NCBI RefSeq assembly: GCF_000488255.1 | Contig: NZ_KI530745.1 | Location: 310,001-374,000 of the forward strand | Length of the DNA stretch: 64,000 bases | Reading direction: 5' to 3' | Source of the DNA: Acinetobacter indicus CIP 110367 | GTDB lineage: Bacteria > Pseudomonadota > Gammaproteobacteria > Pseudomonadales > Moraxellaceae | Shown here: positions 31,387 through 37,114 of the stretch, piece by piece | Layout of the letters: the number at the start of each line of letters is the position of its first letter | Position numbering within the stretch: the first letter of the stretch is position 1 | Made by a program: the position numbers and the translations under genes | The notes under the pieces: generated by a model | What the model saw: only the letters and a program-made list of their open reading frames with translations | Database searches by the model: none | What the model was told of the DNA's origin: nothing

Positions 31387-31425
31387 TAAAAATAAAAATG
31401 AATAAATAGGTTAAGGAGTAAGCTT

Positions 31426-33234
31426 ATGCTCAAGCGGAGCATCGGCATTGGTATGCTGTTTATTGCGGGACATGCTTATAGTAGCAATATTGTTGTCACC
31501 ATCACTGAAGATATTCAAGCCAATGATAAAGAATGTTCACTGCGCGAAGCAGTCGAGTATATTAATTTGGGGTTGCCGGAAGAAGGCCATAATGGCTGCG
31601 GTGGCGAAAATTCCTCCAATGTCATTCTGTTAGAAAAATACGCCGTTTATAAACTTAATCAGCAGTTAAAAATCACCCAACCCTTAAGCATTAAAACCAC
31701 CTATGACACCGGCCTGAAAGAAAACAATATCAAAGGCCTGAACAATGCCATTATCGAAATGGCCGGTAATGAACGTATTTTTCATATTGAAAGTAGTGAT
31801 GATAAACGTATTCAGGTCAACCTGAGCGAAGTCAGTCTGCAAGGCTGTGGCAACGACAGTTGCCGTCCCAATCAGGGCGGCCTGATTCTGAACCATGAAT
31901 ACCTGGTGCTGGATTATGTCAAGCTGAGTCAGGGTCGAGCCAACCAGGGCGGCGCCATCTATAATCTGGCTGAAGTGGGAGAGAATATCGCGCCAGCCTT
32001 TATTGAAATTAAAAACAGTTTAATCCAGCACAACCATGCCACCGAAGGTGGCGCCATCTATAGCCGACTGCCAAGCTTCCGGATTTATGCAGCGGTGTTT
32101 AGCGACAACAAAACCAGCGATCTGGCATCTGCCAACCTCTACACCCAGTTACCTACAGAAGATGTCGAAAATCTCAAGCTGCTGGCCGCTGCCAATACCA
32201 TCAGCAGTACGACCTTTAACCGCAATGAAGGCTATGTGCTGAACCTGAGAGACAATATCGGGGTCAATAACGTCACTTTAATGGGCAATAGCGCAGGGGT
32301 ACGTTTAGAAGCCCCGGCAGGAAAAGGCTATATTGCCAACAGTATTCTGCTGGCCAATCCACATCCTGTGACGGCGCAGTCTGCTAACTGTAGCAAAGAG
32401 GCAGCCGATCAAAGCGTGCTGCAAAACAATCTGGTCTCTGAAGAATGTGGAACGGGCGATGCCAATTACCCGAACCAGATCTGGCAGGGTAGCCATATTT
32501 TTAGCGGGAATATCCTGGAAGGTGCCTGTAAAGTGCTGAGCGAAGATGAGGATGCCTTATTCTGCCCGTATCAGGTCAAAGAAGAGCAGTTCCTGGGCTA
32601 TATTCGCCCACGTATTTTACTGAATTACCAAGCTCTGGCTGACTCTCCAATCGTCAACAAAGGCTATGCACAAGTGGGCACCACTGAGCAGGTTACTTGT
32701 GCCTCGGCAGATCAGCGCGGGGTGAACCGAGCTTCGGATAATACCTTGTGTGACCGTGGTGCAATTGAAATTACCGTACCTGATGCCTCAGGTCTCATTG
32801 GTCGGGATATTCTAGCCGGTGAAATTGCCGAAATGTCGGTCAGCGATTTAATTGGTGATAGTGATCTGGTACCAGCCGAGTTCTGTGATAGCCTGTTTAG
32901 CAGCAATCCGACCGGGAAAGCCTGGCAAGCCGGCTGTGTGCAGATTGAGCAGACCCAGACCAGTTCCAAAGGCCAACTGACAATTGATGAGCAGGGCAAG
33001 ATTATTTATACCCCGGATTCTGCTTGGCATGGCGCAGATGTTTTTAAAATTAAACTGGTGACCAGCAGTACACGTTTTAATACCACCAAACCGTATGTAG
33101 AAATTCGTGTACAAGTGATTCAGGCACCTGAAAACCACATGGATAGTGACAAAATTAAAACATCTGGCGGAGCAGTGGCTGGCTATGGCGTGCTCATGTT
33201 GATGTTATTGGCAGCTTGGCGCCGTAAAAAATAA
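31426..33234 (+). CDS. Secreted CSLREA-domain beta-helix protein with GlyGly-CTERM-like tail
   Basis: A 602-residue exported protein. A signal peptide (about residues 1-21) is followed by NIVVTITEDIQANDKECSLREAV, split around the CSLREA motif (about 35-42). A long stretch rich in Asn, Gly and short hydrophobics then looks like a right-handed beta-helix (IYNLAEVG, GGAIYSRLP, NTISSTTFNRN). A region with GKIIYTPDSAWHGADVFKIKL resembles an Ig/cadherin-like repeat. The end SGGAVAGYGVLMLMLLAAW then RRKK is a Gly-Gly, helix, basic sorting tail like those cut by rhombosortase. A good AAGGAG site precedes the ATG. A paralogue follows 15 bp later. Confidence 0.8.
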   Translation: MLKRSIGIGMLFIAGHAYSSNIVVTITEDIQANDKECSLREAVEYINLGLPEEGHNGCGGENSSNVILLEKYAVYKLNQQLKITQPLSIKTTYDTGLKENNIKGLNNAIIEMAGNERIFHIESSDDKRIQVNLSEVSLQGCGNDSCRPNQGGLILNHEYLVLDYVKLSQGRANQGGAIYNLAEVGENIAPAFIEIKNSLIQHNHATEGGAIYSRLPSFRIYAAVFSDNKTSDLASANLYTQLPTEDVENLKLLAAANTISSTTFNRNEGYVLNLRDNIGVNNVTLMGNSAGVRLEAPAGKGYIANSILLANPHPVTAQSANCSKEAADQSVLQNNLVSEECGTGDANYPNQIWQGSHIFSGNILEGACKVLSEDEDALFCPYQVKEEQFLGYIRPRILLNYQALADSPIVNKGYAQVGTTEQVTCASADQRGVNRASDNTLCDRGAIEITVPDASGLIGRDILAGEIAEMSVSDLIGDSDLVPAEFCDSLFSSNPTGKAWQAGCVQIEQTQTSSKGQLTIDEQGKIIYTPDSAWHGADVFKIKLVTSSTRFNTTKPYVEIRVQVIQAPENHMDSDKIKTSGGAVAGYGVLMLMLLAAWRRKK

Positions 33235-33249
33235 AAACAGGGAAAGGGA

Positions 33250-35682
33250 ATGAAAAATTATAAAAAAGCACTCTTGGGAGTCATGATTGTCAGTGCCATG
33301 TCATTAATGGCCGCAGAAGACCGTACTATTTATGTCACCACATTTGCCGATGAAAATGGTGAAAACCCGGATAAATGTTCGCTACGTGAAGCCTTGGTGG
33401 CGGCCAAACAGAACAAAGCCTTTGGGGGCTGTAGTGTCGGCAATACCAACTATATTGCAGTGGATTATATCCGTCTGCAAGCGGGTGAATACAAGTTAAA
33501 TGCTGAATTACGCCCGCAGTCCAATGTGCGGATTATGGGCGCAACACCGCTTGATTACAGCAAGAAAGATCCTATTACCCACCGTTATCCGGCGCTGATA
33601 TCGCATCAGACCATTATTAACGGCCAGGGGCTGCATCGTATTGTTAATACGCTCGACAGTCAGGCCAATGTCATGTTTGACGATCTGACCCTTAAAAATG
33701 GCTATAGCGATGGGCTGGGCGGGGCTTTACTGGTTGCCGGACCGTTGACCTTGACCAATACCGCAATTCTGGATTCGCAGGCAGCGCGGGGTGGTGCACT
33801 GTATATTGCTGCCCATAATCAGGAACAGCCAATTACGGTGGTGAATAGCCTGATTCAGGGGAACAGCGCCAGTGTCGGCAGTGTGCTGGCGATGGACTGT
33901 ACGGCAAATCTAGCAGATACCCAGGCCAATATCACCATTCAGCAAAGCAGTGTCATTCAAAATGGCAACAGCAACAGCCTGAGTAGCTTTGATTTTTGTG
34001 GCAAGCCGCGTCTGACTTTAACCAATACCACAGTGGCTAAAAATAAAGCGAACTTAACGCAGGGGCATATTTTTAACCTGGCCAATGGCCCGGAGCACCG
34101 CCTCAGTACGCAATCGGTCTTCAGTTTAAATAACAATACCATTGTCGAAAATGAGGCCGTCAGCACCTTCTATTATGATGATTCAGGCATCAAAGTGTTA
34201 AGATTTAATGTCCTGGCATTTAATACGGGAAAATCATGCCGTTATGCGTTGAATAATGGCAATTTAACCGAGCGGCAACCGAATATCAGCTCATCACGCA
34301 ATGCGCTAATTTTCCCGAATGCACAAAGTGTAGAGCAGGGGGTATGTGACCTGCCGGAAACGCTCGCGAGCACAGAAGAAAACTCAATGAGCTCGGTGAA
34401 TCTGAGTGGCAAGCAGTTAAGTGATGTGCTCTATCCAATGCAGCCGGCTTCAGCCTACAACTTATTCCTGCCGTTATATTATCCAAAAAATCTGGACAAT
34501 GATGCGGACCTGGTCAATGTCGAAGGATTTGGCTGTGAAGTGTCAGATCAGCGTGGTTTACAGCGTGTGACTGATGGCACCCTGATTTTAGATCCAGAAC
34601 AGAAAAACAGCTGTGAAATTGGTTCGGTTGAACTCATGCGTATGACCGCAGCAGATATTGTCAATCTGAAAAACGTGTCGCATGTGACCTTGTTTGACAG
34701 CTATCAGCAGGAGATTGACCGTTTAAAAGCGCTGGTTCAGGCACCAGAGAAAAATAAAGAGCTGTTGGCCCAACATCAGGCAGATCTGCAAAACTATGAA
34801 AATTTGCTTAAATTTTCCAAGGAAAAACAGAAATATCGGACTATTTATATCGATCCATTTGCATTAGCCCTCAAGCATGATGAACCAAATGCCGATGGTA
34901 GCGTGGCACAGTTGCTGGAACTAAAACCGGAACACTTTAATATCAGTATAGAAGTCTATGGCATTGGCGGTGGTTTAGAAGATGCGGCCTTTGACCGCAG
35001 TAAACTGCTGCATGATCCAAACCTGAAATGCGAATGGGATGCCGATGTGAAACGGATTCTATTCTATCGTGTCGATGATCAGGTGACTCAGAATATTGAT
35101 TCTGCCTATTGTGCCTACACCATTACTTCGGTGACGGATCCAAGTGTTCAGTCGAGTGGTTTGCTTGAGGCAAAATTCATGAACATCAAACCGATTGCCA
35201 AAGCCGACCGCTACACCATTGAATACGGTTCGGATTTGAAAATTAATGTCAATCCGCTGGAAAATGACAGTGATGATGGTGATGGACCTGTCAATACACT
35301 GCTGTCTGGACAAAATAAACCGGCCTTTTATACCGATAGCAATGGACTTGAATTGCCAATCCGTTTAACCAATGTACCTTCAAGTGTACTGGTCACGGCA
35401 GACCGGAGTGGTCCATGTCCAGGGGATTATGTGCGTGAAACTTGTTATGGCGGAAACCTGCAGATTCAGGTGCGTAACAGCTATAGCCCGTTTGATTATG
35501 AGCTGAAATACACAGTATTTGATGCTGAACAGGAGCTGTCTAATGAGGCGACCATCAGCCTGATCAATACCGCGAAAAACAGCAATACTGAAGGAAGCGG
35601 TGGTGGAAGTCTAGGGCTTGCTGGATTATTTGGTTTATTGGGCATGGCGGTATATCGTGTACGCCGTCAGTTTAAATCATAA
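33250..35682 (+). CDS. Secreted CSLREA-domain protein, second copy, with GlyGly-CTERM tail
   Basis: An 810-residue paralogue of the preceding gene with the same plan: a signal peptide ending near AAED (about residue 20), PDKCSLREALVAAK (about 37-50), beta-helix-like repeats (about 100-420) and a DQRGLQRVTDGT segment (compare DQRGVNRASDNT in the first copy). It has an extra coiled-coil insertion at about 478-530 (SYQQEIDRLKALVQ). A strand domain with NPLENDSDDGDGP follows. The tail GSGGGSLGLAGLFGLLGMAV then YRVRR is a textbook GlyGly-CTERM. AAAGGGA precedes the start. Likely surface-exposed or released; function unknown. Confidence 0.82.
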   Translation: MKNYKKALLGVMIVSAMSLMAAEDRTIYVTTFADENGENPDKCSLREALVAAKQNKAFGGCSVGNTNYIAVDYIRLQAGEYKLNAELRPQSNVRIMGATPLDYSKKDPITHRYPALISHQTIINGQGLHRIVNTLDSQANVMFDDLTLKNGYSDGLGGALLVAGPLTLTNTAILDSQAARGGALYIAAHNQEQPITVVNSLIQGNSASVGSVLAMDCTANLADTQANITIQQSSVIQNGNSNSLSSFDFCGKPRLTLTNTTVAKNKANLTQGHIFNLANGPEHRLSTQSVFSLNNNTIVENEAVSTFYYDDSGIKVLRFNVLAFNTGKSCRYALNNGNLTERQPNISSSRNALIFPNAQSVEQGVCDLPETLASTEENSMSSVNLSGKQLSDVLYPMQPASAYNLFLPLYYPKNLDNDADLVNVEGFGCEVSDQRGLQRVTDGTLILDPEQKNSCEIGSVELMRMTAADIVNLKNVSHVTLFDSYQQEIDRLKALVQAPEKNKELLAQHQADLQNYENLLKFSKEKQKYRTIYIDPFALALKHDEPNADGSVAQLLELKPEHFNISIEVYGIGGGLEDAAFDRSKLLHDPNLKCEWDADVKRILFYRVDDQVTQNIDSAYCAYTITSVTDPSVQSSGLLEAKFMNIKPIAKADRYTIEYGSDLKINVNPLENDSDDGDGPVNTLLSGQNKPAFYTDSNGLELPIRLTNVPSSVLVTADRSGPCPGDYVRETCYGGNLQIQVRNSYSPFDYELKYTVFDAEQELSNEATISLINTAKNSNTEGSGGGSLGLAGLFGLLGMAVYRVRRQFKS

Positions 35683-35773: not shown

Positions 35774-36172
35774 TTAGTATTCTGTCGGCGTGATATATTT
35801 ATTGATATATTCTTCACGAATCAGCACGCGTTCTTCAGGCGTGGCCTTCTGCATTCTTTGGCCGAGTTCCTTGCGTTCCTGGGTACTCATTTTTTGCCAG
35901 GTTTCACGCATTTTCTGCTTTTCTGCATCGGGTAGCTGAATAAACCAGTCCATACGCTGTTGCAAAGAAGCACTTTTATCGGACGGCAGTTCTTTTAAAT
36001 TCTGATAACGTTTGATTAAGGCCAATTGTTCTTCATCTGAGAGGGTTTCCCAGCTTTCAACAATTTTTGTGTCTGCATCTTTGGAGAAAATCCAGAAACG
36101 CTCAAAGCCTGCAAAGCTGGTTTGCAAAAAGCCCAGCGCACAGAAGGCGAATGCTAAACGTTTAGCTGCCAT
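35774..36172 (-). CDS. DUF3106-like exported protein
   Basis: A 132-residue protein with a signal peptide (MAAKRLAFAFCALGFLQTSFA, cut near residue 21) and a helical mature part. It has repeated W-x-x-L/M segments: SWETLSDEEQLALIKRYQNL, RMDWFIQLPDAEKQ and TWQKMSTQERKELGQRMQ. This repeated pattern is that of DUF3106. It is the third gene of a sigma factor - DUF3619 - DUF3106 unit, overlapping the previous gene by 11 bp. A GTG at 36190 could add six residues. A periplasmic helical protein in such an operon may sense or buffer stress, which is inference. Confidence 0.78.
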   Translation of the reverse strand: MAAKRLAFAFCALGFLQTSFAGFERFWIFSKDADTKIVESWETLSDEEQLALIKRYQNLKELPSDKSASLQQRMDWFIQLPDAEKQKMRETWQKMSTQERKELGQRMQKATPEERVLIREEYINKYITPTEY

Positions 36173-36482
36173 GTTGAACTTTATCCTCACCCAGCACCAA
36201 TAACATTTCTAGATCTTCCATCATTTGTGGTGAAAGTTTTGGCGTAGCCACCACCTGATTTTGCGGTTGTGCGGTCATTTCTACCGAATTTGGTAAAATG
36301 ACGAACCCTGCAATGGCAGCCGCAAGTGCAAAACCGGACATTTTCCACAGGCCATAGCGTGATGTCTGCTGGTCCTGAATCTGATCCAGAACATGATTCA
36401 TCACCACAGCTTTGTCTTTGTGGTGGTGGGCGAGTCCATCAAGTTTGGAAGTCACTTGTTTTAAGAAATCATCTTGTTTCAT
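36162..36482 (-). CDS. DUF3619-like membrane protein, probable anti-sigma factor
   Basis: A 106-residue protein with a cytoplasmic helical N-terminus (MKQDDFLKQVTSKLDGLAHH), one membrane helix at about residues 49-67 (FALAAAIAGFVILPNSV) and a short periplasmic tail. It overlaps the upstream sigma-factor gene by 4 bp and the downstream DUF3106 gene by 11 bp. A small single-span protein coupled to an ECF-like sigma gene is the usual architecture of an anti-sigma factor. I see no zinc-binding HxxxCxxC motif, so it would be a non-ZAS type. Confidence 0.7.
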   Translation of the reverse strand: MKQDDFLKQVTSKLDGLAHHHKDKAVVMNHVLDQIQDQQTSRYGLWKMSGFALAAAIAGFVILPNSVEMTAQPQNQVVATPKLSPQMMEDLEMLLVLGEDKVQHGS

Positions 36483-37114
36483 TCTGATGATCCTCCCAGA
36501 TATGGATTCATATGTGCCAGAGTCTGGCGTAAAGCCTGAATAGCACGATGATAATGGGTTTTTACACTGCCTTCAGAACAATTCATAATCTGGGCAGTGG
36601 TCTGAGTATCGAACCCTTCCCAGGCCCGCAGCATAAACGCTTGTTGCTGACGCACCGGAAGTTTGGCGATTGCCTCCTGAATTTCTTCAGCAGTCATGGC
36701 TTGGTCCAAAAACTCAGCAGGATTGAGTGCACGTTCATCGACCAGATCATTTTGTTCGACATCATCGTCATCCAGGCTGACTTTGCGGAAAAATGAAAAG
36801 GGTTGTGCACGACGGGCTTCTTTACGTCGCCAGTCCTGTAATTTGTTATTTAAAATGGTGTAGAACAGCGGATACCACTCATCTGTGCTTTTATCGGCAT
36901 AGGATTTGTGCAGGGAAATAAAGGCTTCCTGAACCAGATCCATCGCGATGCCATGCTGTCCCTGAGTGGCACTTTCCATCATCACTAAGGCGCGCCCGGT
37001 GACCTCGTGCATAAAAGTTTTCAGGCGTTGTTCAGCCGTACTCTTCAGAGTACTCAAACTTTCAGGTTGAGACTTTTTGGGTGCTAAATCCATAGAGATG
37101 GAAAATCCTGTCAT
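36479..37114 (-). CDS. ECF-type RNA polymerase sigma factor
   Basis: A 211-residue sigma-70 family protein with an N-terminal extension. Region 2 is around TGRALVMMESATQGQHGIAM, followed by DLVQEAFISLHK and WYPLFYTILNNKLQDWRRKE. The acidic linker DDDDVEQNDLVDE follows. Region 4 is IQEAIAKLPVRQQQAFMLRA, with a helix-turn-helix at AQIMNCSEGSVKTHYHRAIQAL. It heads a three-gene unit and lies just downstream of a perfect 15-bp inverted repeat. ECF sigmas switch on envelope or stress genes and usually their own operon; the targets here are unknown. Confidence 0.88.
   Translation of the reverse strand: MTGFSISMDLAPKKSQPESLSTLKSTAEQRLKTFMHEVTGRALVMMESATQGQHGIAMDLVQEAFISLHKSYADKSTDEWYPLFYTILNNKLQDWRRKEARRAQPFSFFRKVSLDDDDVEQNDLVDERALNPAEFLDQAMTAEEIQEAIAKLPVRQQQAFMLRAWEGFDTQTTAQIMNCSEGSVKTHYHRAIQALRQTLAHMNPYLGGSSE

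Follow-up and report, generated by a model that had tools for sequence, protein, structure and literature searches.

Rhombotarget A and an adjacent beta-helix paralogue of Acinetobacter indicus: a GlyGly-CTERM gene pair that co-occurs with rhombosortase and is fused in some relatives

The window analysed here is a stretch of 64,000 nucleotides of Acinetobacter indicus CIP 110367 (assembly GCF_000488255.1, contig NZ_KI530745.1, positions 310,001 to 374,000 of the forward strand), and the subject is a pair of adjacent open reading frames (ORFs) within it, ORF1 and ORF2. They are co-directional on the + strand with 15 bases between them and lie downstream of hda and perM, while the genes on the far side, namely a DUF3106 gene, an ORF of 106 amino acids (aa) and an extracytoplasmic function (ECF) sigma factor gene, are oriented towards the pair. 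The genome is that of an Acinetobacter of 3.2 Mb, and a tree of hda and perM placed A. sp. A2 and A. towneri as its nearest named relatives. The first-pass annotation, made from the letters alone, had described the two as tandem paralogous surface proteins that may act as a two-part complex. The two genes would be carried on one transcript; a scan for promoters and terminators found sites at the level of shuffled sequence (10 against a mean of 9.9, and 6 against 6.0) and is thus uninformative on co-transcription of the pair.

ORF1 belongs to a known family, rhombotarget A (RbtA). It matched the RbtA equivalog model TIGR04212 at 741.2 bits (cut-off 295) over model positions 1-604 of 605, and a sequence search matched it (E 2.8e-79) to the crystallised RbtA of A. 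baumannii, PDB 9cdu/9cdv, whose beta-helix structure is reported in PMC12643943. This identity, with its crystal structure, had escaped the first-pass annotation. ORF2 has the same beta-helix fold but stands outside the equivalog: TIGR04212 did not match it at E <= 1, no other equivalog model matched it, and a sequence search of the PDB up to E 0.1 gave no relative. Direct comparison of the two proteins by BLASTP was marginal (E 0.001), and profile-profile comparison gave a probability of 99.8 with E 1e-29 over 379 columns. AlphaFold2 models were made from alignments of the window protein with those of 71 (ORF2) or 65 (RbtA) of 80 named loci from Acinetobacter and Alkanindiges; the predicted local distance difference test score (pLDDT) was 88.2 for ORF2 and 87.1 for RbtA, and the predicted TM score (pTM) was 0.83 and 0.85, respectively. 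The RbtA model fitted crystal chain 9cdu_C with Z 51.7 and 37-38% identity across the beta-helix. The ORF2 model fitted the same chain with Z 35.3 (root mean square deviation 2.5, 364 residues aligned, 27% identity), far above its best structural match after RbtA (Z 25.2), and because of this ORF1 and ORF2 are paralogues, as had been proposed.

Both proteins have a signal-peptide-like start, and in both predicted structures a beta-helix and a tail helix are present. The CSLREA_Nterm model (TIGR04214, cut-off 25) matched ORF1 at 33.4 bits and ORF2 at 41.6 bits, and these are the sole CSLREA matches of the whole genome at E <= 0.001. In this respect the pair is like the class of CSLREA/choice-of-anchor Q proteins; the choice-of-anchor Q model (NF041518) scored 30.7 in RbtA, above its cut-off of 25, and 18.9, below it, in ORF2. 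The DQRG segment begins at residue 429 in ORF1 and at residue 433 in ORF2. Single ORFs of 607-740 aa also exist in that class, unlike the pair here, and for those of four genomes of the order (G521, G426, G364 and G269) a partner was not found in the fetched stretches. ORF2 differs from RbtA in its model by an added helical hairpin and by a longer immunoglobulin (Ig)/cadherin-like part before the tail. The first-pass annotation had given one member a coiled coil; the extra helical part is indeed in ORF2, but it is predicted as a hairpin of two helices (residues 478-497 and 503-525). In the C-terminal part of RbtA the partial Big_9 match reached 22.8 bits, slightly below the cut-off of 23.6, and the Cadherin_4 and Big_9 matches in that of ORF2 were likewise all below cut-off. 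Structural matches of the ORF2 Ig-like part reached Z values of only about 7-8.5 and were rejected as an indication of family membership.

In a whole-genome scan the GlyGly-CTERM model (TIGR03501, cut-off 15.5) scored 19.1 bits in ORF1 and 18.6 bits in ORF2; by hmmscan the ORF2 tail reached only 11.2 bits and the ORF1 tail was not listed apart from the RbtA model. The genome scan at the default E <= 0.001 returned zero matches because the model has only 22 positions. A third match, which scored no more than the cut-off itself (15.5 bits), comes from a frame rich in leucine and was put down to chance, and the tails of RbtA and ORF2 are the only credible Gly-Gly tails of the genome. A single protein exceeded the cut-off of the rhombosortase model TIGR03902 (146 bits, cut-off 84); it is encoded on another contig than the pair, and the second rhomboid of the genome scored 43.7 bits. 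The secretin GspD was matched at 544.7 bits (cut-off 351.35), and the presence of a type II secretion system (T2SS) was judged from GspD alone. The CSLREA motif, the DQRG segment and the Gly-Gly tail that had been read into both proteins, along with the beta-helix and tail helix that the models predict, were thereby borne out, and the searches for rhombosortase and type II secretion that had been proposed gave positive results. Neither of the two outcomes that the first-pass annotation named as contrary to its reading occurred.

Features of the rbtA-ORF2 locus (positions in the window)
Feature	Position	Strand	Basis
rbtA likely ribosome-binding site AAGGAG	31413..31418	+	inferred from sequence
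ORF1, rbtA (rhombotarget A), 602 aa	31426..33234	+	TIGR04212; PDB 9cdu/9cdv
RbtA beta-helix domain, including DQRG/choice-of-anchor Q region, about residues 19-450	31480..32775	+	AlphaFold model; match to 9cdu_C
RbtA CSLREA motif, residues 37-42	31534..31551	+	CSLREA profile and sequence
RbtA Ig-like C-terminal domain, about residues 455-568	32788..33129	+	partial Big_9 match below cut-off; model strands
RbtA GlyGly-CTERM tail	33163..33231	+	TIGR03501, window 33163-33228; predicted C-terminal helix 584-601
ORF2 likely ribosome-binding stretch, purine-rich, in the 15-base gap	33239..33249	+	inferred from sequence
ORF2, RbtA partner, 810 aa, without curated name	33250..35682	+	CSLREA profile
ORF2 beta-helix domain, about residues 25-462	33322..34635	+	AlphaFold model; match to 9cdu_C
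ORF2 CSLREA motif, residues 43-48	33376..33393	+	CSLREA profile and sequence
ORF2 helical hairpin, residues 478-525	34681..34824	+	predicted structure
ORF2 predicted Ig/cadherin-like part, about residues 541-775	34870..35574	+	model; structural matches; Cadherin_4 and Big_9 below cut-off
ORF2 GlyGly-CTERM tail	35599..35679	+	TIGR03501, window 35599-35664; predicted helix 790-809

RbtA, Gly-Gly tails and T2SS dependence were known before. Haft and Varghese (2011, PMC3237569) tabulated two GlyGly-CTERM proteins per genome in each of five Acinetobacter; A. baylyi ADP1 has two by this count. In A. nosocomialis the proteins whose secretion depends on the T2SS include M215_02250/02255, for which the descriptions GlyGly-CTERM and rhombosortase are given (PMC4713064). 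We take these two to be the RbtA/ORF2 pair, a report that the first-pass annotation had missed. No rhombosortase-like motif was seen near the pair in 80 flanks, including two of A. nosocomialis, by a scan that misses 2 of 9 known cases, and for this reason we suspect that the "rhombosortase" of the A. nosocomialis pair is an ORF2-type partner and not a protease. In A. baumannii UPAB1 a protein of the CSLREA type depended on the T2SS (PMC9245377). A1S_2602 is rbtA (PMC8792954), and A1S_2601 and A1S_2602 have been termed potential virulence factors of the pertactin family (PMC7667040). In vesicles of an A. baumannii lpxD mutant lacking lipooligosaccharide RbtA was lower (-3.99), and so was the product of the adjoining locus tag (-3.36) (PMC11395390). 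Judging from its tag and from its name, an earlier designation of the GlyGly-CTERM model, the latter protein would be the orthologue of ORF2.

Cleavage at the glycines and modification of the C-terminus have been shown only for VesB of Vibrio cholerae (PMC6219818), in which the glycine end is reported to bear a glycerophosphoethanolamine-type mass, and T2SS export of a reporter in V. cholerae needed an Ig fold before the tail as well as the Gly-Gly tail (PMC13393428). This requirement fits the Ig-like parts of RbtA and ORF2. The pair is like VesB and the other GlyGly-CTERM proteins of V. cholerae in its signal peptides, Ig-like parts, tails, rhombosortase and T2SS (PMC6219818, PMC13393428). 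VesB is a serine protease, whereas the proteins here are beta-helices, always two, and in some relatives they are fused with an internal tail.

A survey of 249 Moraxellaceae genomes, with ORF2 and the models of RbtA, rhombosortase and GspD as queries, revealed strict co-occurrence of the two proteins. ORF2 had matches in 104 genomes and the RbtA model in 106 at E <= 0.001 (84 above cut-off), and both matched together in 104; a convincing single member of the pair was found in none. The two apparent RbtA-only genomes, G015 and G075, had weak matches (E 8e-5 and 6e-5) and were set aside; that of G015 covered only model positions 515-548 in a frame of 1245 aa. The RbtA and ORF2 models cross-match each other, and adjacency was checked in the 80 named loci and in 15 fetched regions (12 separate pairs and 3 fused); in 20 pair genomes with an RbtA match under the cut-off it was judged by eye from the tables. 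Rhombosortase was above cut-off in 103 genomes and GspD in 202. The pair and rhombosortase occurred together in 101 genomes, the pair alone in 3, rhombosortase alone in 2, and neither in 143. Within Acinetobacter 74 of 91 genomes have the pair, and rhombosortase was present in all 74 of these and absent in 16 of the 17 without the pair. All but one of the 104 pair genomes, 103 in number, had a strong GspD match (E <= 1e-117). Among the Acinetobacter, GspD fell short of its cut-off in 12 genomes, which are all pairless, and five have GspD but no pair.

Two rhombosortase-related observations were made on the side. The genome G113 is an Acinetobacter without the pair and without a Gly-Gly tail above cut-off, and it has a rhombosortase above cut-off (L181:1335-2123), which may be an orphan protease or one with unrecognised substrates. 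In G009, of a genus close to Acinetobacter in the same family, a trypsin-like protease of 378 aa (L172:448-1584) carries a GlyGly-CTERM tail of 19.9 bits and, from its sequence, is a real-looking candidate for a third, VesB-like substrate of rhombosortase. Gly-Gly matches in G003, G018, G030, G113 and G227 were not counted as substrates, as they looked like internal helices, short frames or low scores.

The order of the genes is conserved. An RbtA-like ORF stands upstream of the partner in all 80 named loci, with a gap of -71 to +33 bases in 78; in L135 the partner ORF reaches the contig end, and in L151 the ORFs are short and 668 apart. Upstream of the pair hda lies on the same strand in 79, the exception being L155, whose contig begins within rbtA. 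Among the 17 Acinetobacter without the pair, 15 have a cleanly empty site, where the gene next to hda is the DUF3106 gene (14 genomes) or the spoU-like gene (1 genome); in the other two, G113 and G101, different ORFs follow hda. No remnants of RbtA or ORF2 were found by tblastn (1e-3) in the fetched flanks of these 17 genomes. The DUF3106 gene, the 106-aa ORF and the ECF sigma factor gene (window 35774-37114, - strand) form a conserved cluster, which adjoins hda where the pair is missing. The pair genes evolve fast, with median distances of 0.98 and 1.07 against 0.26 for the neighbours. In 76 of the 80 loci RbtA and ORF2 distances correlated with r 0.948, against 0.72 and 0.75 for the two with the hda+perM distances, and a residual correlation of 0.797 remained after correction for hda and perM, which 0 of 2000 permutations reached.

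The most surprising part of the data is a fused form of the pair, which was found in 12 genomes of two families as one ORF of 1380-1509 aa with the same order, RbtA then partner. Three of these genomes (G002, G018 and G030) belong to one genus of Moraxellaceae, g3, and have single ORFs of 1509, 1486 and 1484 aa at the same locus as the pair, with an FBPase-like gene downstream. The other nine emerged when 390 genomes of the order were searched with the RbtA model, of which 44 had a match (2 above cut-off); in family f43 all 9 matching genomes had a single ORF of 1380-1501 aa. By profile comparison the first half of the f43 proteins fits RbtA better (score 335, 541 columns) than ORF2 (254, 441 columns), and the second half fits ORF2 better (361, 669 columns) than RbtA (196, 384 columns). 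At the junction an RbtA tail (often xEPxSGxTxS..GG) leads into a hydrophobic helix, a basic loop and a second helix, which ends in a signal-peptidase-like Ala site directly before the second module. The helix, the basic loop and the Ala-ending, signal-peptide-like helix are present in 12 of 12 fusions; automatic scoring of the hairpin put the cut in the wrong place in L074 and L222 and could not handle L218, where the spacer is long, and these three were judged by eye. The GG is present in the internal tail of 10 (it is missing in L073 and L223) and in the C-terminal tail of 7, the rest being AGS- or GTGS-like. A tree of both halves, which was a quick tree with Shimodaira-Hasegawa-like approximate likelihood ratio (SH-aLRT) support only and with letter make-up differing among many rows, could not do with fewer than two switches between the fused and the split state, and well-supported branches force both of them. 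On this tree the fused pair arose or was lost repeatedly, and this would favour a fixed stoichiometry and a heteromeric surface complex.

From the sequences we read the fused gene as a natural polyprotein, in which one basic loop does double duty: it closes the GlyGly-CTERM tail on the cytoplasmic side and opens the signal peptide that follows. Whether rhombosortase also processes it is, in our estimate, an evenly balanced matter: the two helices would form a hairpin in the membrane, of which rhombosortase would cut one arm and signal peptidase the other, so that two surface proteins are released 1:1 and the hairpin is discarded. In Bradyrhizobium signal peptidase cuts the cytochrome b/c1 precursor FbcH, a bacterial polyprotein that is divided at a signal peptide within the chain. 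The fused form resembles it in this respect and differs in that the first product would also lose its C-terminal helix to an intramembrane protease. A literature search on the FbcH precedent found nothing, and one on the fused genes, with most subscription papers and all preprints outside it, found no printed account. The obligate status of ORF2 and the hairpin-fused form appear to be new within the literature searched.

Taken together, we consider it probable that RbtA and ORF2 make up a surface scaffold of two mutually obligate parts that is dedicated to rhombosortase and the T2SS, and that it serves in binding rather than as an enzyme. Both proteins would be exported by Sec from one transcript and held in the inner membrane by the C-terminal helix; the rhombosortase of the genome would cut both at the glycine motif, the C-terminus would probably be given a lipid link as in VesB, and the T2SS would pass both to the cell surface and to vesicles. 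There the two beta-helices, borne on Ig-like stalks, would act as an obligate pair and could be a binding or structural scaffold in adhesion, cell-cell or matrix contact. The two-part idea of the first-pass annotation gains support from the strict co-occurrence, the joint loss and the natural fusions; a physical complex of the two proteins is a possibility. Several observations weigh against the proposed scaffold. The pair or its fusion is present without rhombosortase above cut-off in G007 (99% complete), G018 and G030; G003 and G113 have rhombosortase and no pair, and the Gly-Gly match of G003 looks like chance; and G026 has the pair and no secretin match. The genomes are related, so that the counts are not independent trials, and on the hda and perM tree (FastTree, 97 rows, with L201 and L169 as long branches) the pairless label needs 5 changes, 3 of which are forced by well-supported branches. 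The correlated distances can also be explained by joint transfer of the operon.

The two proteins could instead be independent substrates that share one operon and one export route, having arisen by one duplication and bearing their own ligands without forming a complex. A shared operon and a shared rhombosortase would already account for the co-occurrence and the joint loss, and the sequences have diverged strongly (BLASTP E 0.001) and carry different C-terminal parts. We regard this as unlikely, since not one of the 249 genomes holds a convincing single member, the RbtA-only matches of G015 and G075 being weak, and since in two families the fused form keeps both halves at full length and in order. 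A further alternative makes the beta-helices enzymes, namely polysaccharide lyases or depolymerases with capsule or matrix as substrate; the structural matches after RbtA are largely polysaccharide-active beta-helices (alginate lyases of polysaccharide lyase family 6 (PL6), Pel9A and phage depolymerases, Z about 18-25), though any right-handed beta-helix is expected to give such matches. The conservation of the bodies speaks to the same question. Among columns conserved at 95% in residues 55-425 (72 ORF2 and 66 RbtA sequences), charged residues make up 0 of 45 in ORF2 and 1 of 46, R396, in RbtA, and the conserved columns of both are rich in Gly and Asn. The conserved charged active-site cluster of a PL6-type lyase was not seen in either beta-helix, and PL6 family models were not among the Pfam matches. 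With conserved charge all but absent, the bodies are more likely to bind or to give structure than to catalyse, and we hold the lyase alternative to be quite improbable, even though some conserved beta-helix enzymes act with few conserved residues.

For the fused genes another account is possible, though we lean away from it: the chain may stay uncut at the hairpin, or the second protein may be started internally, and the fusion would then be uninformative on rhombosortase. The three g3 genes contain in-frame ATG codons within the first helix, and L218 does so near the second, which makes internal starts possible, yet no convincing ribosome-binding site was seen by eye before those of g3. In two of the three g3 genomes, G018 and G030, which are drafts of 94% and 91% completeness, no rhombosortase was found, and a query with the protein of G002 did not change this; the search among fusion genomes covered only those of g3. 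The GG missing from 2 of 12 internal and 5 of 12 C-terminal tails points the same way. A neutral linker, on the other hand, would not need to keep a helix, a basic loop and an Ala-ending helix across long branches in all 12 fusions, as is observed.

RbtA of A. baumannii is already a surface target of designed binders, with its function unassigned. If RbtA always works with ORF2, studies of a single gene and targeting of a single protein would miss half of the system. In Acinetobacter with two GlyGly-CTERM proteins per genome (the 2011 count) the pair would be the whole job of rhombosortase, and deletion of the protease would therefore show what the pair does. Genes of the fused type, with their hairpin, provide a ready-made way to ask if rhombosortase is able to cleave inside a chain.

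Two features of gene spacing were also observed. In loci of the A. calcoaceticus-baumannii complex and a few others (L134, L138, L145-L147, L153, L156-L158 and L163, also L100, L101 and L135) hda and rbtA stand about 280-380 bases apart, against mostly 50-180 elsewhere; the long gap is a possible extra control region. In several other genera (L077, L081-L083, L085 and L086) the rbtA stop overlaps or abuts the partner start in the ATGA or TGATG manner; this is likely to mean translational coupling, from which little further change would be needed for fusion.

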